Source: Acidobacteriota bacterium
GTDB taxonomy: Bacteria; Acidobacteriota; Terriglobia; 20CM-2-55-15
Direction: 5' to 3'
Assembly (NCBI GenBank): GCA_003223875.1
Contig: QHWY01000172.1
Span: forward strand, 1 to 39,245
DNA: 39,245 nucleotides
The notes under the pieces were generated by a model. The model was not told where the DNA came from, did no database searches, and saw only the letters and a list, made by a program, of their open reading frames with translations. This document shows positions 1,021-27,430 of the stretch, piece by piece. Positions within the stretch are counted from its first letter, which is position 1. Every line of letters begins with the position of its first letter. The translations under genes were made by a program, and so were the position numbers.

Positions 1021-1599
1021 GTGAAAATTATGAACGAGATCGCGACTGAGATATCCGATCACGCGCTTGTAAGGGAGTGTCTGAATGACGATCAGCAAGC
1101 GTGGAGGCAGTTGCTCGACCGTTATAAGCGGTTGATCTACGCCTCGACGGCTCGTTTCGGATTTGACGCTCAAGACAGGCACGACGTATTTCAGGCAGTG
1201 TGCGTTCAGATCCTGAAAAATCTTCACTCGCTTCGCAATGTTTCAAGCCTCCGGCATTGGATACTGACGATTTCGCTCCGCCAATGTTATGCCTTGTTGA
1301 AACGCAAGCGAGCCGAACGGGGACAGGAACCGGACGAAACTGCTCGGGGAGTGGAGGACCATCGGCCCCATACGATACAGATTTATCTCGCCGCCGAGCG
1401 CGCTGAAAAGTTACGCGAGGCCATGGAGGAACTGCCCGACCGCTGCCGATTGCTGCTGGAGCTTCTTTTCTTTTCCGAGGAAAAGACTTCTTATTCCGAA
1501 TTGGGTGGGCGTCTCGGCCTCTCGAAAGACACCATTGGCAGTGTGCGCCTCCGGTGTCTGGATAAGCTCCGAAAAATATTGCAGGACAAAGGATTCTAA
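1021..1599 (+). CDS. ECF-type RNA polymerase sigma factor
   Basis: A 192-residue sigma-70-family protein. Region 2 spans about residues 14-92 (NDDQQAWRQLLDRYKRLIY, then DVFQAVCVQILKNL and RHWILTISLRQCYALLKRK), which binds core polymerase and the -10 element. Region 4 spans about 128-190 (EELPDRCRLLLELLFF, then YSELGGRLGLSKDTIGSVRLRCLDKLRKIL), the helix-turn-helix for the -35. Regions 1 and 3 are absent, as in ECF sigmas. The start is GTG at 1021 or ATG at 1030; neither has a strong Shine-Dalgarno sequence, so the start is uncertain. Its stop TAA is immediately followed by the ATG of the TPR-CHAT gene, implying translational coupling. Next after that gene comes a zinc-finger protein resembling anti-sigma factors. 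The likely targets are its own cluster, but no target promoter could be identified. Confidence 0.9.
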   Translation: MKIMNEIATEISDHALVRECLNDDQQAWRQLLDRYKRLIYASTARFGFDAQDRHDVFQAVCVQILKNLHSLRNVSSLRHWILTISLRQCYALLKRKRAERGQEPDETARGVEDHRPHTIQIYLAAERAEKLREAMEELPDRCRLLLELLFFSEEKTSYSELGGRLGLSKDTIGSVRLRCLDKLRKILQDKGF

Positions 1600-4326
1600 A
1601 TGGCCGCCGGGCAGGAAGCTCATGAAATTCGCCGATATGCAGAAGAAGTCGTACTTGCAGTGAGGTCTGATCCCGCCACAGCCGAGCAACTCCTTCTCAA
1701 GATCGACTCCCTTGTGGGACAAACGCACAATCCCGTATTCGAGGCGTTTAGCCAGCGAGCCAAAGGTCACCTTCTGCACGTTCGAGGGGACCTAACCGAA
1801 GCAGTTCGACGCTACCGTACGGCTTTGACGTTATTTGAACAATGCCAAGACAAGGTAGAGCGCGCCCGAACTGCATCGACTCTGGTGGGTGCCTTGGTTC
1901 CTTTAGGCGAGTACGAAGAAGCGTTGCGTCTGGCAGAGCAAGCGCGCCAGGTCTTTCAAGAAGCCAACCTGCACAACAGAGTCGCTCGGTTGGATGTCAA
2001 CGTTGGAAATCTCTACCATCGCCTGAACCGGCTAGAGGAAGCCTTACAAAGTTACGAGCGTGCGGCGGTTTTTCTAGAGAACTCCGACGATTACGAAGCA
2101 GCGGCGGGAGTGTTAATCAATCGCTCGGTGATTCTGATGCTGCTCTATCGGTTCAACGACGCGCTGGAAGGACTGAACCGGGCTCGCGCGTTCAGTGAAA
2201 AGCACGGACTTACCGTGTTTGCGATACAGAGCGACTACAATCGGGCATATCTGCTGTTCTTGATGGGGCAGGTCGCGCAGGCTTTGAAGCTGCTGGACTC
2301 TGTCGAAGAGGCCTTTGAAAACATCGGAGACAGAGTTCATGTTGCCCTGTGTCGTCTCGACCGCGCCGAAATTCTGCTGAAGCTGAACTTGCCCGAGTAC
2401 GCATGCGAGCTAGCGCGCTCTGCCGAAGATATTTTCCGAAATTGCGCGTTAAATGGAGACCGAGCACGAGCCTTTTTGCTCATTGGACGGGGTGTGTTGC
2501 AGTCGGGAGCGACATTGGAAGCTCTCGGTCACTATAAAGAGGCGAAACGATTGTTCCAGGTCCAGGGTAACGTCATCTGGGCGGCTGTGGCCGACCTTGA
2601 GATTGCGGCCGGGCTAATGGAGTCGCGCAAGTGGAGTGAAGCAGAAAGCCTCGCGGAAGAAGTCGGAGAACTTTTTCGAAGTCATCACCATTTGACGTTT
2701 TCCGCGTTGGCTGATGCATTGAGTGCTCGCTTATGTATTGAGCGCAAGAATCCGGACCGTGCTCTGTCGTTCTTGCGCCGGTGTGAAGAATCCCTAAGGC
2801 ACCAGCCACCGGCATGGCTCCGGTTTCATCTGGAGCATTTGAGAGGACGTGCGCTGCAGCAGCAAGGCCGCCCGGAGGATGCTCGCGAAAGATTTATCGC
2901 CGCAACGGAAGCTCTGGAGTTTCTGCTGACGCAGATATCCGTCGATCAGGCCATGGTCTGCTTCCTTGAAGATAAAGAAGAAGTTTATGAACGACTGGCC
3001 TGTGTATCGGAAGATGTTCGTCAGGCGTTCGAATCGGCTGACCGCGCCAGGACCCTGGCCTTATCCACCACCTGGAATGCGCATGACGCGCCCAAAGAGA
3101 CATCCGATAAAGTTCAGCACCTCCGGGAGACCCTTCGCTCCGACTACCTTCGCCTATTTCAGGTCGGTGAAAGACAGCCTTTATCTTTACTGGAGAAAAT
3201 TAAAGCGATCGAGTATCAGCTCGCACAGGAATTATTGGAGCGCGATTTTCGGCGAGCAGAACCGGCCAGATTTCAAGGCTATCCTAGAACCGTTGATTTG
3301 GCGGATGACGAGGTTCTCCTTGAATATTTCCTGAAGGAAAGCACCGTCTCGGTATTTATCCTCAGAAATGATGCACTGCAGTGGCTGAATCTTCCGATTT
3401 CGACTTCCGAGCTATGGCAAGAAGTGAACTTTACCCGGTACGGCTTGTTCAGGGCGACAGACCCACGACGCGAACCGGCGCTCCGTCACCACTTACGCCG
3501 GCTTTTCGACGCGCTCATCGGTCCTCTATTACCGTTGTTACGAAAGCGGGTCGTTATCGTTCCTCACCGATTTCTGCACCAGTTACCTTTCCACGCACTA
3601 CTGAGCCCGTCGGGTTATTTAGCCGATGAGTATGTTGTTTCGTATGCTCCGAGCGCAGCTTCTTACGAATCGCTCCGGGGCGACCGAGCAGTCTCTTCAT
3701 GTACTTCTTTGGCCGTCGGCATGGAAGCTTCGGATGCGCCCGGCATCCGTTCTGAACTTGCGGTTGTCGCCGATAAGCTTCCGAACTGCACCGTCTCCAT
3801 AAATCAGCGCCTCGAAAATTTCCGGCCTGTTCTGGAAAAGGCGGCGTTTGTTCATATTGCTTGCCACAGCGTTTTCAGAGCCGACAACCCCGCGTGTTCG
3901 CTGTTGAGTCTGGGATCCGACGTCTTGACTCCTATGGATATTCTCGAGGTACCGATTCAGGCGGACCTGGTCACTATCAGCGGTTGCTCGACGGCGCGCG
4001 TGTGCGTGCGGGGCAGCGAAATTCAGGGGTTTGTCCGGGCGTTCTCCATGTGGGGTGTTCGATCATTGATCGCAAGTTTGTGGGACGTCAGCGATGATGC
4101 AACATCAAAACTCATGCATAGCTTCTACGGAAGAATTCAGGATTCACCCGACCTCGCGGAAAACCTGCGTTCGGCGATGCTCGACCTTCGACGCGAATTC
4201 GAGCACCCGTACTACTGGAGCGGGTTCATATTGATTGGCAGACAAAAACTTGGAGCGAGTTGGTGTTGTTTTAAGAATAGCTTTCGAGAATCCAACTGCA
4301 CGGAACGCTCGAATGACAACACTTAA
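1600..4326 (+). CDS. TPR-CHAT caspase/separase-like protease
   Basis: A 908-residue protein. Residues about 40-430 are tandem TPR helices (for example SQRAKGHLLHVRGDLTEAVRRYRTAL and NVGNLYHRLNRLEEALQSYE), a protein-binding solenoid. The C-terminal CHAT domain (about 560-890) carries the expected dyad: His756 in HIACHS and Cys796 in ISGCSTAR. SLIASLWDVSDDATSKLM, a typical CHAT block, follows. The usual Gly after the catalytic His is Ser here. CHAT proteins are cysteine proteases switched on by partner binding through TPRs, as in TPR-CHAT of Craspase. The ATG abuts the sigma stop codon, with AAAGGA at 1588-1593 as Shine-Dalgarno. No signal peptide is seen, so it is probably cytoplasmic. The adjacent zinc-finger protein is an obvious candidate partner or substrate, which is inference. 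Confidence 0.9.
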   Translation: MAAGQEAHEIRRYAEEVVLAVRSDPATAEQLLLKIDSLVGQTHNPVFEAFSQRAKGHLLHVRGDLTEAVRRYRTALTLFEQCQDKVERARTASTLVGALVPLGEYEEALRLAEQARQVFQEANLHNRVARLDVNVGNLYHRLNRLEEALQSYERAAVFLENSDDYEAAAGVLINRSVILMLLYRFNDALEGLNRARAFSEKHGLTVFAIQSDYNRAYLLFLMGQVAQALKLLDSVEEAFENIGDRVHVALCRLDRAEILLKLNLPEYACELARSAEDIFRNCALNGDRARAFLLIGRGVLQSGATLEALGHYKEAKRLFQVQGNVIWAAVADLEIAAGLMESRKWSEAESLAEEVGELFRSHHHLTFSALADALSARLCIERKNPDRALSFLRRCEESLRHQPPAWLRFHLEHLRGRALQQQGRPEDARERFIAATEALEFLLTQISVDQAMVCFLEDKEEVYERLACVSEDVRQAFESADRARTLALSTTWNAHDAPKETSDKVQHLRETLRSDYLRLFQVGERQPLSLLEKIKAIEYQLAQELLERDFRRAEPARFQGYPRTVDLADDEVLLEYFLKESTVSVFILRNDALQWLNLPISTSELWQEVNFTRYGLFRATDPRREPALRHHLRRLFDALIGPLLPLLRKRVVIVPHRFLHQLPFHALLSPSGYLADEYVVSYAPSAASYESLRGDRAVSSCTSLAVGMEASDAPGIRSELAVVADKLPNCTVSINQRLENFRPVLEKAAFVHIACHSVFRADNPACSLLSLGSDVLTPMDILEVPIQADLVTISGCSTARVCVRGSEIQGFVRAFSMWGVRSLIASLWDVSDDATSKLMHSFYGRIQDSPDLAENLRSAMLDLRREFEHPYYWSGFILIGRQKLGASWCCFKNSFRESNCTERSNDNT

Positions 4327-4331
4327 ATAAC

Positions 4332-4937
4332 ATGGGCGCATGTGACCGTTTCGACAGTCTGATGTGGCTCTCGTATCTGAAGGGCCGGTTGAGTGCCGAT
4401 GCGACGGCCGAAATGGAATTACATTCCGCTTCATGCAATGAGTGTCGGGACCAACTGGATTTCTTCCGTAAAATCATCGGCATCATCGAACTGCATTCGA
4501 CGGCTCCACCCGAAAGCTGGACGAAGGAAGCAGGTGAAAAGTTCCGGCTGGCTGGATCCAATTGCGACCTTTCTCGTGTGTTTGGTGAGATGGTCTTTGA
4601 CAGTGACCTGCACGACGAGAAGCCAATCCGGTCGCGGACCATGGAAGCTCGTCATCTGATATTTGATTCACCGAAGGTTCAAGTCGATCTCGTCATGGAA
4701 TCTTCTGGCCGCCAGCTCAAATCGATAATCGGGCAACTGTTGGCGAAGCCAGGAGAGCACGCGGAACCTTTCGAGGAATCCGTACTGACGATCACGGTCG
4801 CATCTTGCACCTACACGGCAGTAGCTAATCGCTTCGGAGAATTCCTTTTCAAAATTGATGCAGAAATGACCGGCGAGCCGTTGGAGCTCCGCTACACATT
4901 CGAGGAGGAAACGTGCGTCATTCTCATTCCCGTTTGA
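4332..4937 (+). CDS. zinc-finger (zf-HC2-like) anti-sigma-type protein, soluble
   Basis: A 201-residue protein. Near the N-terminus ELHSASCNECRDQLDFFRK gives the His-x3-Cys-x2-Cys pattern of zf-HC2 anti-sigma domains. Unlike classical members it has no transmembrane helix. The C-terminal half is beta-rich (RHLIFDSPKVQVDLVMESS, then VLTITVASCTYTAVANRFG and LELRYTFEEETCVILIPV), resembling a small immunoglobulin-like or carboxypeptidase-regulatory fold. It begins 5 bp after the CHAT stop and overlaps the subtilisin start by 25 bp. The family and context suggest that it binds the ECF sigma factor at 1021. Being soluble, it may be relieved by CHAT cleavage rather than by membrane proteolysis. That is inference; the zinc-finger identification itself is moderately secure. 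Confidence 0.65.
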   Translation: MGACDRFDSLMWLSYLKGRLSADATAEMELHSASCNECRDQLDFFRKIIGIIELHSTAPPESWTKEAGEKFRLAGSNCDLSRVFGEMVFDSDLHDEKPIRSRTMEARHLIFDSPKVQVDLVMESSGRQLKSIIGQLLAKPGEHAEPFEESVLTITVASCTYTAVANRFGEFLFKIDAEMTGEPLELRYTFEEETCVILIPV

Positions 4938-6253
4938 GGACTCCAGTCATCATCTTTCTCTTGGTTTTGGCCTTGCTTATGCCGACTCTTGGCCCTGCGG
5001 AGCATTCCGCTCGCCAAGCAATCATTAAGGTGCGAAGTGAAGCTGCCGCCAAAGACATGGCCGATCAGTACGACATCAGTCTGGTTGACTCGATTCCGGA
5101 GCTGAGTCGGTATCTTGTGACAGGAGGGCCGGGCGATCTGGCGAAGTTACGTAAAGATGGCAGAGTACTTTCCACTGAAGATAACGCATTGGTGGAGATT
5201 AGTGAGACGGCCATGCTGAACGAGTCCACGGTTGCTTTGCTTGATCCTTCCACTGTGGCTCTACTGGACGGCCAAGGCAAGCTATGGGATTACCAGCATC
5301 CGGGCGACTCGTCGATGTTGCGACAACCCGCTCTGCAAAAAATTCAGTTCACGCCATGGAATGTCGTCTACGGCGATTCCGTCACCGTCGCCGTGATTGA
5401 TACCGGCGTGGATCCCCTTCATGAAATGCTTCTTGGGAGTACGCTGCCCGGCAAGAACTTTATCGATGAACGCCGGAACACAGACGAATTAATGGATCTG
5501 GATCCTCAAACGGCTGCGTTACTGTTGGAAGCGGGTGGCCGAACGACGCTGAACGGTACGGTGGTTTCTGTTCTGAATCCATCGACAGTAGCACTGCTCG
5601 ATTCTGCGTTGGCCAAACTCTTGAATGGCCGACCATCATTGTATTTCGGACATGGCACCATGGTTTCCAGCCTCATTCACGCTCTTGCGCCTAGCGCCCG
5701 CATTCTACCGCTCAAAGTCTTCGATATGTGGGGACGGGCAACCAGTTTCCGGATCGCAAAGGCGGTCGTATTCGCCGCTACCAACGGTGCACGCGTGCTC
5801 AACATGAGTTTCAGCCTGGACACTCAGTCTCCTTTGGTCCAGGACGCGCTGACGTACGCCAAGAACACGGTCTTAGTAGCCTCGATCGGGAACGACAATT
5901 CGAAAGTTGACAAGAATTATCCAGCTTCCTATGGCAAAGTGTTGGGAATTGCCGCAACAGACTTGAATGACCGAAAAACTGCGTTCTCCAACTACGGGCC
6001 GGTCGCCGATGTATCGGCCCCAGGCGAGGGGCTAATTTCGGCGTACCCCGGCGGGCTTTACGCGGTCTGGTCAGGTACATCTGCAGCGTCGGCATTGGTT
6101 TCAGGCGAGAGCGCACTGCTGCTGTCTCGTAAGGACTGGAAATCGGACGAACTCATTAAACGCCTTATCGATAGTGTCGATCCGCTTCACGACCGGTACG
6201 ATCTTGGCAAAGGACGTATTAATTTGAAATCCGCCCTCGACAAGATCAAATGA
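4913..6253 (+). CDS. secreted subtilisin-like (S8) serine protease
   Basis: A 446-residue protein starting at GTG 4913, preceded by AGGAGG at 4903-4908, which supports this start. Residues about 10-27 are a Sec signal (VIIFLLVLALLMPTLGPA). A short propeptide (about 35-95, AIIKVRSEAAAKDMADQYDI) resembles the I9 inhibitor. Catalytic residues are Asp163 (VAVIDTGVD), His247 (FGHGTMV) and Ser390 (SGTSAASA), with oxyanion Asn327 (ASIGNDN). Thus the triad is intact and the enzyme should be active outside the cytoplasm. Oddly, the motif STVALLD occurs three times, at about 105-119 and 222-230. The third copy sits in an extra stretch of about 50 residues between the catalytic Asp and His. By context it may trim the exported peptide encoded next, which is inference. 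Confidence 0.92.
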   Translation: MRHSHSRLRTPVIIFLLVLALLMPTLGPAEHSARQAIIKVRSEAAAKDMADQYDISLVDSIPELSRYLVTGGPGDLAKLRKDGRVLSTEDNALVEISETAMLNESTVALLDPSTVALLDGQGKLWDYQHPGDSSMLRQPALQKIQFTPWNVVYGDSVTVAVIDTGVDPLHEMLLGSTLPGKNFIDERRNTDELMDLDPQTAALLLEAGGRTTLNGTVVSVLNPSTVALLDSALAKLLNGRPSLYFGHGTMVSSLIHALAPSARILPLKVFDMWGRATSFRIAKAVVFAATNGARVLNMSFSLDTQSPLVQDALTYAKNTVLVASIGNDNSKVDKNYPASYGKVLGIAATDLNDRKTAFSNYGPVADVSAPGEGLISAYPGGLYAVWSGTSAASALVSGESALLLSRKDWKSDELIKRLIDSVDPLHDRYDLGKGRINLKSALDKIK

Positions 6254-6310
6254 AATTTCACATCCGCTGCACTTTCCTTCGAAAAGCTTCCACTACTTAG
6301 AAGAACAACT

Positions 6311-6346
6311 ATTCCCTTCCTTCCCAGGGAGGGGAATACTTTCCCC
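6311..6346 (+). promoter_or_regulatory. two mutually exclusive hairpins just upstream of the peptide gene Shine-Dalgarno
   Basis: Bases 6311-6320 can pair with 6328-6337 (10-bp stem including one G-U, 7-base loop). Bases 6331-6336 (GGGGAA) can pair with 6341-6346 (TTCCCC, loop TACT). The two stems share 6331-6336, so only one can form at a time. The Shine-Dalgarno begins at 6351. The layout resembles an attenuator or translational switch. There is no U-run, so it is not a simple terminator. Confidence 0.4.
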
Positions 6347-6350
6347 GCAG

Positions 6351-6360
6351 AAAGGAGGTG
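6351..6360 (+). promoter_or_regulatory. strong Shine-Dalgarno for the peptide gene
   Basis: AAAGGAGGTG is almost fully complementary to the 16S rRNA tail and lies 6 bases before ATG 6367. It fixes the start at 6367 rather than at the in-frame GTG 6358 that lies inside the ribosome-binding site, and it predicts high translation. Confidence 0.85.
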
Positions 6361-6366
6361 AAATCA

Positions 6367-6552
6367 ATGAGGCACCTGAATCTTGAATTGGAAAAACTAG
6401 AGCAGCGTATTGCGCCAGGTGGCGTTCCAACTCCCGGCAGCAAGAGCTCAAAGAGCGGCAAGAGCGATAAGACAGCTAAGAGCGCGAAGACCGCCAAGAG
6501 CGACAAGAGTGATAAGAGCGACAAGAGCCACGGCTCCAAGAGCAGCAAGTAA
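6367..6552 (+). CDS. small Lys/Ser-repeat peptide, candidate precursor of a processed or modified product
   Basis: The encoded peptide has 61 residues. Residues 1-19 (MRHLNLELEKLEQRIAPGG) look like a leader: amphipathic, acidic, ending in Gly-Gly. From memory, this head resembles the LExLExRxxP motif at the N-terminus of many planctomycete and acidobacterial exported proteins. After a PTPG linker, residues 26-53 are a strict triplet repeat Lys-(Ser/Thr)-X, with X Ser, Gly, Asp, Ala or His, and Lys at 26, 29, 32 and every third position to 53. Two more lysines sit at 58 and 61. The very strong Shine-Dalgarno, upstream switch-like hairpins and a downstream hairpin all suggest a highly expressed precursor. 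The next gene carries a PqqD-like peptide-recognition domain. The function is unknown; a precursor role is inference, but its reality as a gene is well supported. Confidence 0.8.
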   Translation: MRHLNLELEKLEQRIAPGGVPTPGSKSSKSGKSDKTAKSAKTAKSDKSDKSDKSHGSKSSK

Positions 6553-6586
6553 CATCGTCCGAGCAATTGGGACAGGAGACGCTCTT

Positions 6587-6637
6587 GGGCTCAGGCATCG
6601 GCACTAGCTTACGCGGACTCGGCCACAACCTGAGTCC
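6587..6637 (+). other. imperfect inverted repeat downstream of the peptide gene
   Basis: GGGCTCAGG at 6587-6595 and CCTGAGTCC at 6629-6637 can pair over 9 bp (one G-U) across a 33-base loop. It lies in the 166-bp gap between the peptide gene and the M50 fusion gene and may protect the 3' end of a short peptide transcript. Its function is not established. Confidence 0.3.
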
Positions 6638-6657
6638 ATGGTGCTCATTTGCCTTGG

Positions 6658-6685
6658 AAGGCCGCGATGCACATTCAGCGGCCTT
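6658..6685 (+). terminator. terminator-like hairpin after the peptide gene
   Basis: AAGGCCGC (6658-6665) and GCGGCCTT (6678-6685) form a perfect 8-bp stem with a 12-base loop, followed by CTTAAAC. The T-tract is poor, so it is probably a partial terminator. It would leave the peptide transcript more abundant than the downstream maturation genes, a common arrangement for precursor-peptide operons. Confidence 0.5.
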
Positions 6686-6718
6686 CTTAAACACTATAAC
6701 TGATGAGTCAACCAACAG

Positions 6719-9316
6719 ATGGGATCTTCGCTGCCAAAGCTTCGGAATGATCTGAGGATTAGCCGGCACGTGACGGCCGCGGGCACCTCTTTTGTCGTCA
6801 AAGAGCCTGCTTCAGGCAATTTCTTCCGGCTCGGCGAGGCTGAATATTTCATCGCGCAACATTTCGACGGCAAAACACCGCTGGAAACAGTGCGCCAGCG
6901 AGTGGAAGAAAAATTCGACGCTTCCCTTTCCAGTGAAACGTTACGGGCCTTTATCAATGAGCTGGACAAAAGGCACTTCTTCGAGGACGAGCGCGGTAAT
7001 AAGTCGAAAAAGCCTCGACGGAGGATCAGCGGCAATCTGCTCTTTCTGCGATTCAGAGCCTTCGATCCGACCCGACTGTTTGATCGTCTCGAGCCGCGCA
7101 TACGCTTCTTCTTCACGCCTCATTTCGTCATTCTTTCAGCCGTTTTCATTCTCTTCTCTGTCGGCGTCACGATTGCGCACTGGGATGAGTTCGTTACCGA
7201 TGTCTCGCGGCTATACCGGATAACAGCCGTTCCCATGTTCATGATGGTTGTCTTCGTTGTCGTTATTGCCCACGAATGTGCCCACGGTCTGACCTGCAGA
7301 TACTTCAAAGGCGAGGTTCATGAAATCGGTTTCCTGCTGATTTACTTTCAGCCTGCAATGTACTGCAACGTCAGCGACGCCTGGCTGTTTCCCGAGAAAT
7401 CCAAAAGAATGTGGGTCGGCGCTGCTGGACCTTATTTTGAATTATTTCTTTGGGCGCTGGCGGTGATGGCGTGGCGCATTACGGAATCGGATACATCCAT
7501 CAATGATGCAGCTCTGATTGTTGTGGCGACGTCCAGCGTGAAGACTTTCCTAAATCTGAATCCCCTCCTGAAATGGGATGGTTACTATCTGCTCAGCGAT
7601 TGGTTGGAAGTCCCTAACCTAAGAAGGCGGTCATTCAAGTACGTCGGTGATTTGCTCAGGAGGTTGGCGGGACTGCCCTCTCGAATTGCAGATGCAATCC
7701 CTCGACGCGAACGCTGGATTTATATGATCTACGGTGTCGTGGCGACCTTTGGCTCTTTTTCCATTCTGTTTTACGTCCTGGTGACCGCTGGAGGCCGACT
7801 CGTTGAAGGCCGGCAGCCGACGGTGGTCATGCTCTCGATGAGCCTGCTGTTCCTGAAGTTCAGGCGCCGCTTTCGCCGCCTGTTTGGAAAACGATCCGAT
7901 TCAGCAGATGACCTGGATGATGACTTCGACGACGAGAGCTCCGATGCCGGCTTCCGGGCAGACCACGTCGAGAACAGCTTCAGGGCTGAGACAGACAAAG
8001 GCGAACCTTCACGGTCTGATCCAACTCCGGTGAAGTCATCACGCCGCAACAAAGGTCGCAAACTGCGACCGCGCGCAATTTGGTCGATTATCGGCGTCGT
8101 CTCAGTTGCCGTTTTTCTGTTTGGCCATTCGGAGCTGCGGGTCAGTGGCCCTTTTAACATCCTGCCTGAAGAAAATGATGACGTCCGCGCCCCTGTGGAA
8201 GCCGTCGTCGACACCATTTATGTGGATGAAGGAGACGAAGTCCGAAAAGGAGATTTGATTGCCCAGCTTTCGGAAGTGGACCTCCGCGCCGAACTTCGCA
8301 AGACCGAAGCGGATCTGGCCGCCAAGCAAGCGCGTCTGAACATGCTCATTGTAGGAACGCGGCCCGAAGAAATCGAGTTGGCCCGAAAAGCGGTCGAGAC
8401 AAGTGCGACGAAAGCTCAGCAAGCCCTGGACCTATATAACCAGGCCAAACGCTCGCGAGAGGAACGGCTGGCACTCGCTGAGACGACAATCAAGAAAGGC
8501 GAGGAGCGGCTTCTATACGGCCAAAAGAGTTTGCAGATGCAGGAGGAGTTGATCAAGGAAGGTTTGGGCTCCATTCATCAGGTCGATGAAGCCGCCGAAC
8601 AGGTGGCCGTCCGCCGGAGGGAACTCGAGGAGGCGCGTGCCCTAAGACAAGTCATTCTTGCCGAAGATTTGGCCGAAATTCGAAAAGATGTAGCCATTAC
8701 CGAGAAAGAAGCTAAAGAAGCCGAAGCAAAACTTCAGATCCTCATGGCCGGAGCCCGGAAAGAAGAGATCGAAGCACTGCAGGCAGAGCTCACAAGTTCC
8801 GAAACACAACGCGCGTTTCTTCAGCAGCAACTCGAGGGTACACGCGTCCTTAGCCCGGCGACAGGAATTGTCGCGACGCCATCGCGGCTCCTTAAAGAGT
8901 TGAATCGGCAGCTCGTCAAAAAAGGAGACTTGATCGCGAAGGTTTATGCCCTCAACAAAGTCTCAGCACAGATCCTGATTTCAGAAAAAGAAATCGCCGG
9001 TATTGCCGTCGGTCAAAAGGTGGAGCTCCGAGCCCGAGCCTACCCTAGCGAGACGTTTGAGGGAATTGTTACTTCGATTGCGACCAGCGCACAGGGTACT
9101 TCCGGCAGCGAAGAAGCGCCGGCGACTACATCAGCTACCAGTGCCACTGGAAGCAAAACAATTGTTGTCACCACCGAAATCGAAAATCAGTCGTTACTTC
9201 TCAAGCCGGGAATGACAGGACAAGCCAAAATATTCTGCGGCAGACGGTCCGTGCGTGACCTGGCAACGCGACGCGCGGCCCAAACCCTGAAGGTCGATTT
9301 CTGGTCGTGGTGGTAA
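6719..9316 (+). CDS. PqqD-like domain / M50 site-2 protease / HlyD adaptor fusion
   Basis: An 865-residue, three-part membrane protein. Residues about 10-90 (FVVKEPASGNFFRLGEAEYF through RAFINELDKRHFFE) match the PqqD-like winged-helix fold used as a RiPP recognition element. Residues about 130-380 are a multi-pass M50 metalloprotease with HECAH at 185-189 (zinc ligands and catalytic Glu186) and the third ligand Asp287 in NPLLKWDG. A charged linker follows (about 395-455). A membrane segment (IWSIIGVVSVAVFLFG) comes next, then a HlyD-type adaptor (about 485-850) with lipoyl-like motif VRAPVEAVVDTIYVDEGDEV, long coiled coils and a second lipoyl half. Such fusions pair peptide recognition or cleavage with export. 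No ABC or RND transporter is encoded nearby. ATG 6719 is the only convincing start but has no good Shine-Dalgarno. Confidence 0.88.
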   Translation: MGSSLPKLRNDLRISRHVTAAGTSFVVKEPASGNFFRLGEAEYFIAQHFDGKTPLETVRQRVEEKFDASLSSETLRAFINELDKRHFFEDERGNKSKKPRRRISGNLLFLRFRAFDPTRLFDRLEPRIRFFFTPHFVILSAVFILFSVGVTIAHWDEFVTDVSRLYRITAVPMFMMVVFVVVIAHECAHGLTCRYFKGEVHEIGFLLIYFQPAMYCNVSDAWLFPEKSKRMWVGAAGPYFELFLWALAVMAWRITESDTSINDAALIVVATSSVKTFLNLNPLLKWDGYYLLSDWLEVPNLRRRSFKYVGDLLRRLAGLPSRIADAIPRRERWIYMIYGVVATFGSFSILFYVLVTAGGRLVEGRQPTVVMLSMSLLFLKFRRRFRRLFGKRSDSADDLDDDFDDESSDAGFRADHVENSFRAETDKGEPSRSDPTPVKSSRRNKGRKLRPRAIWSIIGVVSVAVFLFGHSELRVSGPFNILPEENDDVRAPVEAVVDTIYVDEGDEVRKGDLIAQLSEVDLRAELRKTEADLAAKQARLNMLIVGTRPEEIELARKAVETSATKAQQALDLYNQAKRSREERLALAETTIKKGEERLLYGQKSLQMQEELIKEGLGSIHQVDEAAEQVAVRRRELEEARALRQVILAEDLAEIRKDVAITEKEAKEAEAKLQILMAGARKEEIEALQAELTSSETQRAFLQQQLEGTRVLSPATGIVATPSRLLKELNRQLVKKGDLIAKVYALNKVSAQILISEKEIAGIAVGQKVELRARAYPSETFEGIVTSIATSAQGTSGSEEAPATTSATSATGSKTIVVTTEIENQSLLLKPGMTGQAKIFCGRRSVRDLATRRAAQTLKVDFWSWW

Positions 9317-9328
9317 AGGAGAGCAAAT

Positions 9329-10324
9329 ATGGTCACATCGGAAGTCGATCTGAAACCGGAATCAAAAATTGAACAAGCGGAATTCGCTGCTCCCGCGGAA
9401 TCCACAAGCGCCTGCCAAGCTGATGCGGATATCCCCTACGAGAAACTGTACCTGACTGGGCGGCCGACGCTGAAGGAATTCCTCCGGTTCGTGCGAAAGA
9501 ACGCTTTGAACCCGCCTAACGAGGGTATTCTCACCGATGAGTGGGAAAATGCCAAAACGGTGGCTCGATCGCTCGAAACGTTGGAGGCGGACGCCGTGGA
9601 CAATCCCCCTATCCACAAGCTCGGACCGCAACACGAACCGCTCCTGATCGAATTTTTAAAGGATCCCGTGGTCCAGCACAGTTTCAATACCGTTCCAACT
9701 GAAGTCGCCATCGTCGAACTGGATCGCATGATCGTTTATCAAAAACATATCGATCTGACGTTCGCGCGTCAGCTTGAAAGAAAATTGGGTCCCTCGCCGA
9801 CGGAAGAGCAAATCTTCCGCACCTGTCTGCCGTACGATCATCCGCATCCACCGGTGAAGTGGTCGCGAATGCGGCGGAACAGCTATGTTTTCATGTCGCC
9901 GTCCAATGATCTACGTTTCCTAGGTGCCAGGCCGTTGAACCCCGCCGACATAGTAACCTCCTCTCCAAACCTCGTAGGCATGGTTGGGCTTGCGGTCGGT
10001 TTTGGCTCGAATTTTATGAACGCGATCTATGCCGAAAACCGACTCATTCTCAACAATGGAAGCCATCGGGCATACACACTCCGCAAGATGGGAATCACGC
10101 ATGTACCTTGCATTATTCAACATCTCGGCTCATGGGATCAGCTCGACGTCATCGCGTCTACCGAGGTGGCTGAAAGTCCGGATTTCTTCCTGAAGAACGC
10201 CAGGCCGTCAATGTTGAAAGATTATTTCGATCCGAGACTCCACAAGGTGATTCCTGTCCATAAACGATTGCAGCAGATTACCGTGCGATTTGAAGTGGAA
10301 GAAAGCTCGGTGCCAGCGTTCTAA
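9329..10324 (+). CDS. ParB/sulfiredoxin-fold-like protein of unknown function
   Basis: A 331-residue soluble protein. AAAGGAG at 9315-9321 supports ATG 9329, which is 12 bp after the M50-HlyD stop, so the two are cotranscribed. The only recognisable motif is LILNNGSHRAYTLRKMGI followed by VPCII (about residues 241-263, His246-Arg247). It matches the G-x-HR signature of the ParB/sulfiredoxin superfamily, which includes ParB CTPases, sulfiredoxin and the free-serine kinase SerK. The N-terminal 190 residues (including YLTGRPTLKEFLRFV and YDHPHPPVKW) match nothing I recognise. It lacks the ParB helix-turn-helix region and is not near a parA. In this context a peptide-modifying phosphotransferase is conceivable, for example on the Ser-rich tail of the 61-residue peptide, but that is speculation. 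Confidence 0.55.
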   Translation: MVTSEVDLKPESKIEQAEFAAPAESTSACQADADIPYEKLYLTGRPTLKEFLRFVRKNALNPPNEGILTDEWENAKTVARSLETLEADAVDNPPIHKLGPQHEPLLIEFLKDPVVQHSFNTVPTEVAIVELDRMIVYQKHIDLTFARQLERKLGPSPTEEQIFRTCLPYDHPHPPVKWSRMRRNSYVFMSPSNDLRFLGARPLNPADIVTSSPNLVGMVGLAVGFGSNFMNAIYAENRLILNNGSHRAYTLRKMGITHVPCIIQHLGSWDQLDVIASTEVAESPDFFLKNARPSMLKDYFDPRLHKVIPVHKRLQQITVRFEVEESSVPAF

Positions 10325-10338
10325 GGGTGGTGCGCCTC

Positions 10339-11892
10339 ATGCCGCATGAAAGCGAGCGCAGACTTCGGATGTCCTTGTTTACCGTCCCTGATGTGTCGAT
10401 CGGACGTGCTCCACTCACGCCTCAAAACAGCCAATTTGACCAGAGGCGGTTGGATTATCTGGAAGGGATGACCCGCTATCTGAACAATCTCTTTCAGGAT
10501 TTAGAGAAACGTTACTCTCAAGAGGAAGCCCTTTCGCGTCTTCAAAAATCGATCGCACAGCTCCCTTATTCGGAATTGGTGGAAATCGATGTCAAGAGAA
10601 GACCTGCGGTGAAGGCGCTTGCCAGCGCACGCGACAGAATCGCATTTAATCAGGAGCGCCTGAAAATCTCTTTTCTGGACGGCCTTGGGCGTCGCGCGGA
10701 GAGTCCAACAATCACAGCCGGCACCTCCTCGCCTGATGTATGCCACATCATCTCGAAGCTGTCACAGGGCATTTCGGAAGACTCGCTCTCGCAGATTCTC
10801 AAAAAGTCTTCCGTCGGCCTCACGGCTGTGATCGACGGTCTGCGTCAGCTTCAATTCATAGAAGAGACCGACATCGCGCAGCCCGTCGTGCCCAAGGACT
10901 TATTAACCGGCAAAGACGATCGTCTCACCTGGCTCGGGCACGCCTGCGTCTTGTTCCAGACTTCCTCGACATCGATCTGCGTCGATCCATTTCTTCGACC
11001 ACACATACGATGGACCGAAAGAGACCTGCAGTCTTCCTTTTCAGACTCCTATGCGGACCGCCTGTTCTTCGAACCCTATGGCCCACAAGTACCTCAGTTG
11101 TCACCCGCCGAGTTGCCACACCTCGATGCCGTGTTTGTTACGCACCAGGATATCGATCATTTTAATCTGGGAGTTCTGATGATGCTGCCGGAGGACGTCC
11201 CCATTATTGTCCCTGGCTATCGCGGTCATCATATGTGGGAGGTCAATCTGCGAGCTGTAATCCACAAGGTCCTTGGCAAGCGCCGCAACGTGATTTGTCT
11301 CAAACATGGAGAGACGATCACGATCGGGGACGTTCATGCGACGGCGTTTCCATTCTTCTCCGAGATGCCCTCTTCGCTCAAAACATCTTGGAATTGCTAC
11401 ATATTCGAAACCAAAAGATCCGCCATCGCCTGTGCTGCCGATTCCGCCATCACGGACAGTTCTGTCGACTTCCTCGCAAACCGGTTGACCGGCGAACGGA
11501 AACCGTTCGTCTTGTGTGCTCGATTAATCCACTCGGGACAAAAACCCGCAGGCTATCGGGATGAAATCGACAGTGTATTCAACTTCACCCGGCTGTGGCC
11601 GTGGTACACGCCGATCTGGGATCTTTTTCAACCTGTAGAGGAGCTGGGTATTAGCGAGAACCGTTTTCGGACTCTGTGCCGGCGGACGAATTTGCGCTTC
11701 TACATGCCGTACGCTATGGGTACAGCTCCGTGGTACCGCATCAGCGATGTAAACGATCCATTACACGTACCTATGGCGAACCTCTCGTTGCGTGATTTGC
11801 AATCGCTGTCCCTCAAACTGGAGGAGCTTTCTGAAGGCTCCGTACTATTTCCCGGCAAATTCGCAAAACCTGTGCCTCTCGCGTCCGCCTGA
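10339..11892 (+). CDS. metallo-beta-lactamase-fold hydrolase (UlaG/PqqB-like) with N-terminal winged-helix-like domain
   Basis: The protein is 517 residues from ATG 10339. GTG 10327 and GTG 10330 are in frame, but the AAGGGTGG run at 10323-10330 sits well placed to serve ATG 10339. Residues about 130-180 (CHIISKLSQGISEDSLSQIL through VIDGLRQLQFIEE) have the spacing of a small winged helix, reminiscent of PqqD-like domains. The MBL fold follows: LTWLGHACVLF and ICVDPFL, the metal motif THQDIDHFN (His269, Asp271, Asp273, His274), VICLKHGETITIGDVHATAFP, and an Asp-containing IACAADSAIT strand. This resembles UlaG- and PqqB-type hydrolases. It is the last gene of the rightward cluster and starts just after the ParB-like gene. 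The substrate is unknown; PqqB-like action on a peptide is one possibility. Confidence 0.8.
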   Translation: MPHESERRLRMSLFTVPDVSIGRAPLTPQNSQFDQRRLDYLEGMTRYLNNLFQDLEKRYSQEEALSRLQKSIAQLPYSELVEIDVKRRPAVKALASARDRIAFNQERLKISFLDGLGRRAESPTITAGTSSPDVCHIISKLSQGISEDSLSQILKKSSVGLTAVIDGLRQLQFIEETDIAQPVVPKDLLTGKDDRLTWLGHACVLFQTSSTSICVDPFLRPHIRWTERDLQSSFSDSYADRLFFEPYGPQVPQLSPAELPHLDAVFVTHQDIDHFNLGVLMMLPEDVPIIVPGYRGHHMWEVNLRAVIHKVLGKRRNVICLKHGETITIGDVHATAFPFFSEMPSSLKTSWNCYIFETKRSAIACAADSAITDSSVDFLANRLTGERKPFVLCARLIHSGQKPAGYRDEIDSVFNFTRLWPWYTPIWDLFQPVEELGISENRFRTLCRRTNLRFYMPYAMGTAPWYRISDVNDPLHVPMANLSLRDLQSLSLKLEELSEGSVLFPGKFAKPVPLASA

Positions 11893-11917: not shown

Positions 11918-13207
11918 GTGAAGAAAGAGGACGCAGCCGAGACTCTGTCGATGAACGGGCGCGAAGTACGTGTGACCCACGCCGGCAAGCTTTATTTCTC
12001 CAGGCAAACGAAGCTCTCGAAACTCGATCTCGTCCGCTATTACATGGCTGTCGCTCCGGGCGCCCTGGCTGGAATTCGCGATCGGCCGCTGGTTCTGAAA
12101 CGGTTCGTCAATGGTGCGGAAGGCGAGGCGTTTTATCAGAAACGCGCGCCGGCACGGCGGCCCGAATGGCTGCGAACGGTCACGCTGTCATTTCCTTCTG
12201 GGCGCAAAGCGGAGGAGATCGTTGTGGATGATGCAGCAGGCCTCGTGTGGATCGTGAATCTGGGCTCGATCGAGCTGCATCCGCACGCGGTGCGCACTGC
12301 CGATCTTGAGCATCCTGACGAGTTGCGCGTCGATCTGGATCCGGGTCCGGGGGTCGGCTGGGACGACGTACGCCGTGTCGCTCTTGAAGTGAAATCGTTT
12401 CTCGATGAGATGGGACTGAGAAGCTGGCCGAAGACGAGCGGTTCGCGTGGAATGCACGTGAATGCGCGGATTGAACCGCGCTGGACGTTTGTCGAAGTGC
12501 GGCGCGCTGCACTTGCGCTTTCGCGTGCAATCGAGAGGCGGGTACCCTCCCTCGCCACCTCGAAATGGTGGAAGGAGGAGCGGCACGGCGTGTTTCTCGA
12601 CTACAACCAAAACGCGAAGGACCGTACGACGTGCTCCGCGTATTCCGTGCGGCCGCTGCCGGATGCGCGCGTATCGGCGCCGCTTCGCTGGGACGAAGTT
12701 CCCGACTGCGATCCGGCCGCCTTCACCGTGCTCACGGTTCCGAAGCGTTTCGCGAAATTGGGCGACCCGCACGCGGATATGGATGCTCAGCCAGGCTCCC
12801 TCGAAAAGCTGCTCGAGGTTGCGGCCGAAGACGAAGCGGCTGGTCTCGGCGATGCGCCATGGCCTCCCCACTTTCGCAAGATGGAAGGCGAATCACCGCG
12901 CGTAGCCCCATCGCGTGCGGCGAAGAAGCCGCGAAAGAAGATGCCGCTTCTGGTGATCGCCAACTCTCCCTCTAAAGAAGCTGCTCTTGCCGGGCTGGAC
13001 CGGTGGAAGAAGAAGCACTCGGAAGTGGCCAAGCTTCTTGCCGTGGACGATGTGCTGATCGACTCGATGCGAGGCCGGTCATCCACATGGACTCGTATCC
13101 GCTTGAACCTGCGTCACGTGCCGGAGGCTTTGCGCCCACCGCAGGAAACTCCGGATCCCGATGACGATCCCACCCGTGAATGGCGTAGTCGGAGAATGAG
13201 CACGTAA
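11918..13207 (+). CDS. LigD-type polymerase (archaeo-eukaryotic primase fold) for end joining
   Basis: A 429-residue stand-alone POL domain of the LigD family, an NTP-preferring gap-filling polymerase in bacterial non-homologous end joining. Catalytic metal ligands are Asp139 and Asp141 in RVDLDPGP, with a later Asp228 in FLDYNQNAKDRT. The nucleotide-binding motif SGSRGMHV has His180. Early motifs VTHAGKLYF and YYMAVAP are typical. The C-terminal 100 residues are a Lys-rich tail. In many bacteria this domain is fused to ligase and phosphoesterase; here the ligase is a separate, convergent gene 6 bp away. The start is GTG 11918 or ATG 11951; neither has a clear Shine-Dalgarno. No Ku gene is in the window. 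Confidence 0.88.
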   Translation: MKKEDAAETLSMNGREVRVTHAGKLYFSRQTKLSKLDLVRYYMAVAPGALAGIRDRPLVLKRFVNGAEGEAFYQKRAPARRPEWLRTVTLSFPSGRKAEEIVVDDAAGLVWIVNLGSIELHPHAVRTADLEHPDELRVDLDPGPGVGWDDVRRVALEVKSFLDEMGLRSWPKTSGSRGMHVNARIEPRWTFVEVRRAALALSRAIERRVPSLATSKWWKEERHGVFLDYNQNAKDRTTCSAYSVRPLPDARVSAPLRWDEVPDCDPAAFTVLTVPKRFAKLGDPHADMDAQPGSLEKLLEVAAEDEAAGLGDAPWPPHFRKMEGESPRVAPSRAAKKPRKKMPLLVIANSPSKEAALAGLDRWKKKHSEVAKLLAVDDVLIDSMRGRSSTWTRIRLNLRHVPEALRPPQETPDPDDDPTREWRSRRMST

Positions 13208-13213
13208 TCCGTT

Positions 13214-14302
13214 TTACCGGCCACTCGCAAAAATTACCGCCAGCTCCAGCGGAGGAACCACCTCGAGTTGGTCATACGTGCAGTCGCTCGGCTTCTTGTC
13301 CGGACGCCAACGGCGAAACTGCGCCAGGTGGCGAAATCGACGGCCCTGCATGTGTTCGTAAGCAACTTCGACAACCAGCTCGGGCCGCAGCGGCTCCCAG
13401 GAAAGATCCTTGCCCTGGCTCCAGCGGCTCTGGCCCCCGGGCATGCGATGCCCGGCTTCGGCGTCCGCCGGTTCGAGCTCGGCCCATCGTTTCCAGGGAT
13501 GATCGGCGAGGGCATCCCGCCGATACCGCGCGAGGTATTCGACGAGGTCACGGCGCACGCTGTCCTTAAAGCTCCCACAGACACCCACATGCTGCAGCGC
13601 GCCGGCATCGTCGTAAAGACCGAGCAGCAGCGAGCCGACAGCCACGCGCCCACCGTTCTTGTGCCATCGAAAACCGCCAACCACACAGTCGCAATCGCGC
13701 TCGTGCTTTACTTTGAGCATGACCCGCTTGTTGGATTCATAGGTTCCCGAAATCGCCTTGGCCACGACACCGTCGAGACCGGCGCCCTCAAAGCGGCGAA
13801 ACCAATCCGCCGCGACGTTGATTTCAGGCGTTGCAGGCGTCAAGCGGATCGGCGGAGCTGCGGTTGAAAGCAGCGATTCCAGCTTCAGACGGCGCTCCTG
13901 AAAGGCCATGCTGCGCAGATCCTGGTCGCCCTCCGAGAGCAGATCGAACAAAACGATCGATGCCGGAGTTTCCTGCGAAAGCAGCTTCACCCGCGAGGCG
14001 GCCGGATGAATGCGAAGCTGCAATGCTTCGAAATCCAGCACGCCATTTCTGGCGATGACGATTTCGCCGTCGGCAACTACGCGAGCCGGCAATTCTGATC
14101 GAAGCGGCTCCAGCAGTTCCGGGAAGTAGCGGTTCAGCGATTTTTCGTCGCGGCTCTGAATCAGGATCTCATCGCGGTCCTGAAAAACCAGCGCGCGGAA
14201 CCCATCCCATTTCGGCTCGAAGATCCAATTTCCAGCAGCGGGTAATTCTCCGACCCGTTTAGCAAGCATCGGCAGAATCGGCGGGTTTACGGGAAGATTC
14301 AC
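13214..14302 (-). CDS. ATP-dependent DNA ligase (LigD/LigC type)
   Basis: A 362-residue ligase. Motif I is EPKWDGFRAL with the adenylated Lys31. Downstream are VADGEIVI (motif III region), GLDGVVAK (motif IV) and MLKVK (motif V). A C-terminal OB-fold follows (residues about 235-355). The length and motifs fit the ligase domain of LigD or free-standing LigC, which seals nicks and breaks. It is convergent with the LigD-type polymerase (gap 13208-13213) and divergent from the 5'-3' exonuclease, with only 23 bp between the two starts. The three genes form a plausible repair module. The start ATG at 14300-14302 gives the expected N-terminus. Confidence 0.92.
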   Translation of the reverse strand: MNLPVNPPILPMLAKRVGELPAAGNWIFEPKWDGFRALVFQDRDEILIQSRDEKSLNRYFPELLEPLRSELPARVVADGEIVIARNGVLDFEALQLRIHPAASRVKLLSQETPASIVLFDLLSEGDQDLRSMAFQERRLKLESLLSTAAPPIRLTPATPEINVAADWFRRFEGAGLDGVVAKAISGTYESNKRVMLKVKHERDCDCVVGGFRWHKNGGRVAVGSLLLGLYDDAGALQHVGVCGSFKDSVRRDLVEYLARYRRDALADHPWKRWAELEPADAEAGHRMPGGQSRWSQGKDLSWEPLRPELVVEVAYEHMQGRRFRHLAQFRRWRPDKKPSDCTYDQLEVVPPLELAVIFASGR

Positions 14303-15120: not shown

Positions 15121-15801
15121 TCAACCGATTTTTAGAAACTGCAGGCCTGAATCCTGCCAACGGGGGATCGAGTATTCCAGGGCCTGGAGCATATGCGATC
15201 GGTCGGCATTGGCCGCGTGATGATCGCCGTCGTGGAGAAGAACAATGTCGCCGTTTCTGGCTTTGCGCAGCCGGCGGCTCACGCGTGCTGCGGGCTGCGG
15301 CTTCCAGTCCCGCCCGGAAACGGACCACATGACGATTTTAGAAAGTCCCATCTCACGAACCGCTGAATGAAATTGCGGACCTCGAAAGCCGAATGGTGGC
15401 CGGACTATGGTGGTACCTTGGCCCGTGGCTGTGAATACAGCATCTTCACATCGGCTCAGTTCGTCCCTGATCTGCCGGCGTGTCAGGAAAAGCAGGCTGG
15501 GATGTCCGTACGTATGATTCCCAATCGCGTGGTTGGCTGCGCGAATCTCTTTAGCGAGTTGGGGATACTCTTTAACGTACTTACCAAGAACGAAGAATGT
15601 CGCGGGTACCCGATATTTTTCCAAAAGCGCGAGCAACTTTGACGTGACCCGAGGATTCGGTCCATCATCGAACGTAAGCGCGCAGGCATTGCCGGCGCTT
15701 GAAACCGTCGTCCCGAACAACTGCGATCGCGGGTGAAACGCGCCCCACGCCGGAACTCCTAGCGCAGCCACCGTTGGAACGATAATCTCCAATGGATTCA
15801 T
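15121..15801 (-). CDS. polysaccharide deacetylase (NodB-homology, CE4)
   Basis: The protein is 226 residues from ATG 15801, where MNPLEIIVPTVAALGVPAWG gives a plausible N-terminal membrane anchor or signal; an in-frame upstream start at 15831 is less likely. CE4 motifs are complete: TFDDGP (motif 1), HTYGHP (motif 2, zinc His ligands), RPPFGFRGP (motif 3), DWKP (motif 4) and IVLLHDG (motif 5). Such enzymes remove N-acetyl groups from peptidoglycan or other cell-envelope glycans. The gene follows the hopanoid operon on the same strand but is separated from it by about 325 bp with a hairpin element, so it is probably a separate unit. Confidence 0.88.
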   Translation of the reverse strand: MNPLEIIVPTVAALGVPAWGAFHPRSQLFGTTVSSAGNACALTFDDGPNPRVTSKLLALLEKYRVPATFFVLGKYVKEYPQLAKEIRAANHAIGNHTYGHPSLLFLTRRQIRDELSRCEDAVFTATGQGTTIVRPPFGFRGPQFHSAVREMGLSKIVMWSVSGRDWKPQPAARVSRRLRKARNGDIVLLHDGDHHAANADRSHMLQALEYSIPRWQDSGLQFLKIG

Positions 15802-16126
15802 CGCCAAGCATTCTAAGTGCGGACAGACCATCGTGCTAGCCCATTTGGGGCATGTGTCTTATGTTTGACTCATTCAAGGAATTTCCTGATAAATCCGGCT
15901 CAGCCAGAGTTCTCAAAGATTCACATCGGCCCACCATCAGCACTGGACCTCGACCGACGTTTGTTTTCTCGCTGAGTCCCGGGGGAAGGTCTACAAAAGG
16001 CACAAAACCAGCCCAAAAAGCACAAAGAACTCTTTTTTGTCCTTTTTTTTGGTCTTCATTGTGCTTTTTGTGTTCGTTCCGCTTTTGTTGGCGCAAAGCC
16101 GCTCGAATGGATTGATTGCGTGCATT
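15802..16126. other. intergenic region between hpnE and the deacetylase gene
   Basis: The only structure I can support in these 325 bp is the A/T-rich inverted repeat at 16013-16073. Short open frames on both strands show no recognisable features and are judged to be chance. Confidence 0.5.
16013..16073. repeat. long A/T-rich hairpin, dispersed TTTTTGTG element copy 2 (likely end of the hopanoid operon)
   Basis: Bases 16013-16030 and 16056-16073 are inverted copies matching at about 15 of 18 positions around a 25-base loop. The arms contain AAAAAGCACAA and TTGTGCTTTTT. It lies downstream of hpnE in the direction of transcription and ends in a T-run, so it could terminate the operon. It belongs to the same sequence family as 581-606 and 32288-32363. 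Confidence 0.5.
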
Positions 16127-17500
16127 CTAGGTGCGCACAAACCACCGTGCCAGTCCGTTTGGGTAAATGTCGGTACGAACCAGCGTGGCGGGCGATCCTT
16201 CCCTCGACAGAATCGCTTCCGCCGCCTGATATCCGCTGCGGACAGCGCTTTCCATTGTTGCGGGCCAGCCTGTATTCGTCCAATCGCCGGCAAGAAACAA
16301 ATTCGGGACTGCCGTTGTTTGCGAGGGCCGCCAGCGATCGCAACCCGGCGCCGGTGAAAACGTAGCGGCATTCTCACGAATCACGACCGCACGCAGCAAG
16401 GAGGCTTCTTTTGCCCCCGGTAACAGATCATTCAACTCATAGCGACAAATGTCGACAATCTCTTGCTGCGATCGGTTCGCGAGTTCGCGCGACGCGCTGA
16501 TCACGATTTGGACGTATCGATTCGTTCTATTGAAGATCCACTGAATCGTGTGATCGATCGACGTCAAAAACGGCTCTGCCATCACCGGGCGGTCAAACCA
16601 CATGTGGACACCCGTAATTGGCGACACCGAAAAATTCGCGAGGTTTGCGAACATCTCAGTCCGTCGGATCTCGTCTGGGACAAGCTTCGCTAAACGATCA
16701 AACGGCACAGCCAGAACGTAGTAGTTCCCACGAACTTCACCGCCTCCGTCCAAGCGAACGGCGTCCGCTTTGCCATTCGACAGACAAATCTCGCTTACCA
16801 AACAGCGCGTGCGCACTTCTCCGCCGTGTTTCTGAATGGGCTCGCAGCAGGAGGCATACAAATCGGCCAGTGGAACGGCGGGAACACCCATTCCGAAGCC
16901 GGCCGAATTGGAAAGGAACGCTTTCCAAAACACCAGAATGCCGTAACGCGCATCGGTGCGGTCGAGTTCCTCATTCAGCGCGCTGACGAGAACAACGCGC
17001 CAGAAATGATCGATCGCTCGAGGAGTTTGCCTTGCCTCACGCAGCCATTCGAGCATCGTCGTACCGTCTCTGATTGTGGGGCTTCCGCCACTCGCGAGTA
17101 TGCGAAACATGGCGCGCGCGATCGAAAATTTGTCCCGGACTGTCAGAAGCGGTAAAGCCGCGAACGATGGAGCCAGATGCAGGGGCGCCGGCAGCTTCGA
17201 GGGTCGGATCCGGCCGCGCCGCCCCTTTGAATCCGAAAAGATCAGTTCGTTGTAATAGTGAATCTTGTCGGCGACGCCGGCTCGTCGAAAGAAATCTTCT
17301 AAATTGGTGCAGCACCGTAGTGTCACGTGCTGGCAATTGTCGATGGATTCTCCGGATGGAAGGCGGTAGGACGTCGCGCGCCCGCCAAGCCGTGGATTCT
17401 TCTCCAGCAGAGATACGCGCATCCCGTGTTCGGCGAGCGCGAGCGAGGCGGCGAGTCCCGCAAGACCGCCGCCGACGACAACTACGTGTGGCGGAGGCAT
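16127..17500 (-). CDS. hpnE: squalene-producing FAD-dependent oxidoreductase HpnE
   Basis: The protein is 457 residues from ATG 17500. The frame is open 50 codons further upstream, but those codons overlap hpnD and lack homology. The N-terminus MPPPHVVVVGGGLAGLAAS is the FAD-binding GxGxxG Rossmann motif, followed by LLEKNPRLGGRATSY, typical of the amine-oxidase/phytoene-desaturase family. The C-terminal FAD motif is NLFLAGDWTNTGWPATMESAVRSG. HpnE reduces hydroxysqualene to squalene, the last step of the HpnC/D/E route. The gene overlaps the end of hpnD by 19 bp and is the last gene of the leftward hopanoid operon. Confidence 0.93.
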   Translation of the reverse strand: MPPPHVVVVGGGLAGLAASLALAEHGMRVSLLEKNPRLGGRATSYRLPSGESIDNCQHVTLRCCTNLEDFFRRAGVADKIHYYNELIFSDSKGRRGRIRPSKLPAPLHLAPSFAALPLLTVRDKFSIARAMFRILASGGSPTIRDGTTMLEWLREARQTPRAIDHFWRVVLVSALNEELDRTDARYGILVFWKAFLSNSAGFGMGVPAVPLADLYASCCEPIQKHGGEVRTRCLVSEICLSNGKADAVRLDGGGEVRGNYYVLAVPFDRLAKLVPDEIRRTEMFANLANFSVSPITGVHMWFDRPVMAEPFLTSIDHTIQWIFNRTNRYVQIVISASRELANRSQQEIVDICRYELNDLLPGAKEASLLRAVVIRENAATFSPAPGCDRWRPSQTTAVPNLFLAGDWTNTGWPATMESAVRSGYQAAEAILSREGSPATLVRTDIYPNGLARWFVRT

Positions 17501-19273: not shown

Positions 19274-19274
19274 G

Positions 19275-26316: not shown

Positions 26317-26322
26317 TGAAAA

Positions 26323-27288: not shown

Positions 27289-27430
27289 TCGACCTCTTCG
27301 TTTCACAAATTCCGGACCGTAAATCCTAACATGACCATAGTGGTTCCTTGACCTTTGTTTTGCGTGGTTTGAAAGGAGCAGGTCTCAGACGCGCCCCTAA
27401 GCAGGCGGCTCATGGAGAATGTTTCGCAGC

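Follow-up and report, generated by a model that had tools for sequence, protein, structure and literature searches.

Three adjacent genes in the window, the 39,245-nucleotide stretch of acidobacterial DNA analysed here, encode a short peptide, a PqqD-like/M50/HlyD fusion protein and a protein, P7, that fits no known family. They form a rare conserved cassette that probably carries out leader-guided, RiPP-like maturation of the peptide. The window belongs to a draft genome of 6.58 Mb in 489 contigs. In the first-pass annotation of this DNA, eight genes at 1021-11892 were joined into one peptide maturation and export system under sigma/CHAT control. All eight open reading frames are present there on the plus strand. 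They represent two units: genes 1-4 are a common acidobacterial module, and genes 5-7 are the cassette. The features are as follows.

1021..1599, plus strand: ECF sigma factor (TIGR02937, 3e-22), first gene of the separate module
1600..4326, plus strand: TPR-CHAT protease-like protein (PF12770, 6e-50)
4332..4937, plus strand: zinc-finger (anti-sigma-like) protein (weak match to PF13490, E 0.018, below cut-off)
4913..6253, plus strand: secreted subtilisin (subtilase S8, 3e-34)
6351..6361, plus strand: Shine-Dalgarno sequence aaaggaggtga of the peptide gene, read from the sequence
6367..6552, plus strand: putative precursor peptide, 61 aa, with the leader MRHLNLELEKLEQRIAPGG followed by a Lys/Ser-rich repeat tail
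6719..9316, plus strand: PqqD-like/M50/HlyD fusion, 865 aa (PF02163, PF13437; PF05402 sub-threshold)
9329..10324, plus strand: P7, 331 aa, no known family, with the ParB-like motif NNGSHRAYTLRKMGITHVPC
10327..11892, plus strand: MBL-fold protein, 521 aa (PF12706, 1.5e-11), first metal motif THQDIDH

The domains named by the first-pass annotation were recovered with three qualifications: the PqqD-like match falls below threshold, that to the zinc finger is weak, and the protein of gene 7, which had been called ParB/Srx-like, has no family. The coupling of the upstream genes was as described, with the sigma and CHAT genes abutting at 1599/1600 and the zinc-finger gene overlapping the S8 gene (4937/4913). 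Two further groups of genes were seen in the open reading frames of the window. A LigD-like polymerase half and an ATP-dependent ligase half are encoded at 11918-14302 by separate convergent genes. At 15121-27306 on the minus strand there is a hopanoid-type cluster with squalene-hopene cyclase-like protein, squalene/phytoene synthases, HpnH-like radical SAM protein and IspH.

Leader peptide and fusion protein

The most likely start codon of the peptide is ATG 6367, preceded by aaaggaggtgaaatcaATG, a near-perfect ribosome site, which gives a product of 61 aa; this start was preferred to the upstream GTG at 6358. Strong Shine-Dalgarno-like stretches also precede most of the homologous peptides, 21 of which were collected from 16 cassettes. 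Their leader is kept and their tails are variable. One or two leader peptides, often two copies, lie just upstream of the fusion gene in 16 of the 17 cassettes in which its 5' region is readable, so the key check proposed for the original reading, the recurrence of the peptide beside the M50 fusion, gave a positive result. The sole exception is G403, where the fusion is frame-disrupted. The peptide consensus is M(K/R)xLxLxLxxLE(E/Q)RIAPGG (also written MKHLxLxLxKLExRIAPGG) with a Gly/Ser/His/Lys-rich tail. In the leader alignment LE, R and A are invariant, I is nearly so, and GG is common and not fixed. The tails consist of SHGSK repeats, GS runs or Gly-Ile-rich sequence with Cys and His, and end in K, G, H, C, S or D.

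A degenerate DNA pattern of the leader occurred in nine of the 399 genomes of the class, namely the eight that carry a strong P7 ortholog (E < 1e-100), the window genome included, and one other (8/8 versus 1/391; Fisher P = 6e-16). The match in G355 was dismissed as chance, neither peptide nor fusion being found in that genome. Base changes between homologous leaders numbered 761, 384 and 1386 at codon positions 1, 2 and 3 (1386 of 2531 at the third), and codons with a single change gave 829 synonymous cases against 345; these counts were taken over related pairs and are not independent. The peptide is thus more than a chance reading frame, because its leader recurs beside the same two genes elsewhere with changes concentrated at third codon positions, and the leader is constrained at the protein level. 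Its constraint against the differing tails looks like the usual contrast of leader and core. As in RiPP pathways generally, a short precursor of this make-up is encoded beside its candidate maturation genes.

The fusion consists of a PqqD-like region (about 25-90), an M50 protease (about 130-360), a hydrophobic segment (about 453-475) and an HlyD part (about 480-865). Hydropathy fits a cytoplasmic N-terminus, a membrane-embedded M50 domain, the further segment at 453-475 and HlyD beyond it. The M50 motifs are HECAH at 185 and LKWDG; the catalytic residues are invariant across the orthologs and the domain architecture is conserved. The PqqD-like N-terminus reached PF05402 at E 0.0034, sub-threshold, and three of ten orthologs gave E < 0.01. 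Residues 16-364, a range including the PqqD-like region, matched the daptide_HExxH family (NF041824) with 207 bits and 3e-61 against a curated cut-off of 300. By this sequence match, the N-terminal half of the fusion and the daptide site-2 protease with its fused RRE are apparently homologous. The cassettes share no conserved transporter gene next to the fusion, which counts against a RiPP reading. The window genome has a second PqqD-like/M50/HlyD fusion (G000:C184:1084-3453, L051), 36% identical in the N-terminal half. It was rejected as a second cassette, since neither a leader peptide nor P7 accompanies it.

P7, variable enzymes and distribution

In every cassette whose contig extends far enough, a P7 ortholog comes after the fusion, and the identity of these orthologs across three phyla is mostly 57-65%. 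Searches of Pfam, NCBIfam and, by profile, the PDB gave no credible match for P7. An AlphaFold model from a 13-row alignment had a pLDDT of 38 with no fold recognised, which also weighs against the RiPP reading. The motif G-x-H-R-A...G...VP presumably resembles that of ParB-type proteins. The likeness to ParB/sulfiredoxin-like proteins lies in this motif, whereas neither P7 nor its remote relatives match a Pfam or NCBIfam family. Such relatives (15-20% identity; L012, L016, L022 and L030) stand alone in other genomes of the class and carry the motif GYHRA...G...P. G070 encodes a weaker P7 relative (40%), and this is the only P7 locus with no fusion just upstream. The fusion was not found in that genome, and its P7 was taken as a divergent relative and not as part of a cassette.

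In seven cassettes P7 is followed by two further genes, C2 (HxD...H oxygenase-like) and C3 (FemAB/FemX-like). A Gemmatimonadetes cassette (G400) has C3 only, placed upstream, which brings C3 to eight relative cassettes. C2 is about 233 aa long, with H88-x-D90, H162 and R187 invariant in six sequences. It thus has the HxD...H(...R) pattern of 2OG-Fe(II) oxygenases, by motif only; Pfam gave no match, a PDB profile search no credible one, and an AlphaFold model from a 6-row alignment a pLDDT of 33. C2 was found in one of 126 class genomes, itself a cassette genome, and in six of the twelve cassette genomes searched, in each case next to P7. No genome lacking the cassette had it among these 126 and twelve. 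C3 belongs to the FemAB family (PF02388, 2e-36, 126 bits, cut-off 24). Its solved relatives are FemX and an aminoacyl-tRNA-dependent peptide synthase (PDB 3GKR, 1NE9, 9WQW). It shares its family with these transferases and differs in being encoded in a peptide cassette, though not in that of the window.

The window genome has no C2, and the window cassette contains neither FemAB nor HxD...H genes. This counts against the RiPP reading; no tailoring enzyme is therefore universal unless P7 is one. Two bases after P7, in the position of the relatives' tailoring genes, lies the gene of the MBL-fold protein. Among solved structures, this protein is closest to CmlA-type diiron oxygenases (8A90, E 4e-10; 4JO0). 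The match to these beta-hydroxylases covers the MBL core only, and the N-terminal 175 residues are unmatched. Furthermore, the CmlA metal motif HxHxDH (THNHQDH) is replaced by THQDIDH, that is H-Q-D-I-D-H, in which the second His has become Asp. It is suggested that the MBL protein takes the place of the oxygenase-like C2 in the window. The PqqB-like role assigned to it earlier was not borne out, since no PqqB model of NCBIfam matched.

The trio of peptide, fusion and P7 recurs in metagenome-assembled genomes of Acidobacteriota, Verrucomicrobiota and Gemmatimonadota. Conservation of gene order, proposed as a check on the original reading, was thus confirmed for genes 5-7 and failed for genes 1-4 beside them and for the MBL protein. 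Besides the eight of 399 class genomes with strong P7, the cassette was found in two of 286 genomes in the class of a verrucomicrobial carrier, and strong P7 in two of 200 genomes from the phylum to which the gemmatimonad carrier belongs. The cassette is thinly and patchily distributed. Class members with the cassette carry names as Acidobacteria; all named cassette records are metagenome-assembled, and their phylum labels depend on binning. The P7 tree does not separate the three phyla cleanly, and its deep branches are poorly supported; horizontal transfer of the cassette is likely. A second type of cassette with a divergent P7 occurs in Verrucomicrobia (L107:10576-14711, L104:7684-11131, L110, L111), in which the tails are GS repeats or Gly/Ile-rich sequence and not SHGSK repeats.

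The upstream module

Genes 1-4 recur elsewhere without any leader peptide and therefore represent a module of their own, abutting the cassette by chance. Relatives of the zinc-finger protein were found in 60 of 250 class genomes. In most of the best of these loci a TPR-CHAT gene lies on one side and, if enough sequence is available, a subtilase gene on the opposite side, which is the order in the window, and two of them have an ECF sigma relative beside the zinc-finger gene. The genomes of these best loci lack a leader-peptide match except for the window genome and G246, where the zinc-finger locus and the cassette are on different contigs. The catalytic motifs are present in the CHAT protein (HIACHS/SGCST) and in the subtilisin (DTG/GHGT/GTS) of the window.

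The single system proposed at first, in which an ECF/CHAT switch would turn on the peptide genes, S8 and M50 would process the peptide and the MBL protein would be a PqqB-like maturation enzyme, is improbable. It is suggested by the shared strand, short gaps and adjacency of the genes in the window, and three Verrucomicrobia loci likewise have a subtilase gene close to the cassette (L058:13479-16293, L107:15308-18910, L067:7750-8508). However, those subtilases, about 60% identical to one another and two of them with Calx-beta-like repeats, are only 28-35% identical to the window S8 protein and are of another type. Relatives of the ECF, CHAT and zinc-finger genes adjoin none of the cassette relatives examined, the much commoner block of genes 1-4 recurs in the absence of a leader peptide, and the MBL protein is confined to the window, with no full-length ortholog in 299 class genomes. 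Of the RiPP-like pathway as first described, the peptide and the PqqD-like/M50/HlyD architecture stand, and the S8, sigma/CHAT and PqqB parts fall away. The module merely adjoins the cassette and is a neighbour outside the peptide pathway.

The subtilases of this module have a feature of their own. The window S8 protein carries STVALLD repeats at residues 105, 113 and 224. An octapeptide QSTxAhh(N/D) is present in 2-12 copies in all the subtilases compared from such modules, those of the window and of 12 other loci (L118, L119, L120, L121, L122, L125, L127, L129, L131, L133, L134, L135). Its variants include NQSTVALL, NQSTMAVV and QSTAAVLD. Its copies sit in the loop that separates the catalytic Asp from the His, and in some cases there are further ones ahead of the Asp. 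The octapeptide could possibly be a site for the CHAT protease, or else an inhibitory loop. A defence-system reading of the region was abandoned, as PADLOC gave a generic subtilase only.

Relation to known peptide systems and proposed maturation route

Daptide precursors have a common leader motif, ELExMEAP, and lose their leader to an RRE-dependent intramembrane peptidase (PMC10036551). Judged by eye, this motif is similar in shape to the cassette leader LELEKLEQRIAP (ELEKLEQRIAP in the window). The daptide leader protease MpaP/DapP (NF041824) resembles the fusion in having an N-terminal RRE/PqqD-like domain and an M50 site-2 protease, and daptide clusters likewise encode several short precursors each. 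Unlike daptide clusters, the cassette has an HlyD adaptor fused behind M50 and no adjacent ABC transporter, and its peptides have repeat tails instead of branched aliphatic cores. The protease and the leader could place the cassette among the daptides, as a subclass making peptides with the daptide C-terminal amine. This is very hard to credit, being contradicted by gene content: Pfam and NCBIfam found no DapB/DapC decarboxylase pair, DapD aminotransferase or DapM methyltransferase in the window genes or the scanned neighbours of relatives. Nor do the peptides end in the invariant Thr of daptides.

Some tails contain His-x-Ser repeats reminiscent of the His-Xaa-Ser (HXS) systems, with a weak match to HxsA4 (20.6 bits, cut-off 55) that is probably compositional. 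The radical SAM proteins HxsB/HxsC were absent from the scanned cassette genes. The cassettes showed none of the enzymes usual in RiPP pathways, a further point against the RiPP reading. No paper on the combination of PqqD, M50, HlyD and RiPP was found in the literature searched, subscription papers lying outside the search. The letter string of the leader returned only unrelated titles, mostly on fungal taxonomy and one on palynology.

The tails are simple-sequence repeats that could serve unmodified, and this too counts against maturation. The LExRIAP segment might then serve as a signal for sorting or export that M50 cuts during secretion, the G/S/H/K/C-rich tail working outside the cell, for example as a metal-binding, adhesive or matrix peptide, and P7 and the other enzymes acting on the signal or on something else. 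Low-complexity tails that differ in kind behind a fixed signal would suit such a secreted peptide. The HlyD part implies transport, and FemAB-type enzymes are normally cell-wall enzymes, so that the target could be the envelope. On the other hand, the tight linkage of the peptide with P7 and with C2, which is restricted to cassette genomes, suits peptide modification, and NCBIfam scans of the peptides gave no N-terminal sorting-signal family. A secreted, unmodified peptide is rather unlikely.

Leader-guided maturation remains the preferred reading. It builds on the observed conservation of the peptide and the trio, on their domain make-up and on the catalytic motifs; leader binding, the cleavage site, any modification and export are predictions. 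The peptide would be made from its strong ribosome site, and the PqqD-like domain of the membrane fusion, on the cytoplasmic side, would bind its conserved N-terminal segment MRHLNLELEKLEQRIAP. The low-complexity C-terminal half would be the core, altered by P7 and the variable enzymes, which may be the FemAB-like transferase and the HxD...H oxygenase-like protein in many relatives and the MBL protein in the window. M50 would then cut off the leader near AP, and the HlyD part would convey the core through the periplasm to an exporter whose gene lies elsewhere. Both the binding of this segment and the cut near AP are predicted from the window leader and its daptide likeness.

A bolder proposal is a new RiPP class of soil Acidobacteriota, Verrucomicrobiota and Gemmatimonadota, defined by the LExRIAP leader, a single-chain RRE-protease-HlyD protein and P7 as founding enzyme of unknown family. 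FemAB would add aminoacyl-tRNA-derived residues to the Lys/Ser/His repeat core, and interchangeable oxygenases would hydroxylate it. This is conceivable and tentative. In any case the cassette is a candidate, open to testing, for a peptide class of uncultured soil phyla that has yet to be described. Leader recognition, cleavage and the export adaptor are predicted to be joined in one protein. P7, together with C2 in the relatives, belongs to no recognised family and may thus point to new enzyme chemistry. Because leader and P7 co-occur so sharply, a minimal three-gene reconstitution is feasible.
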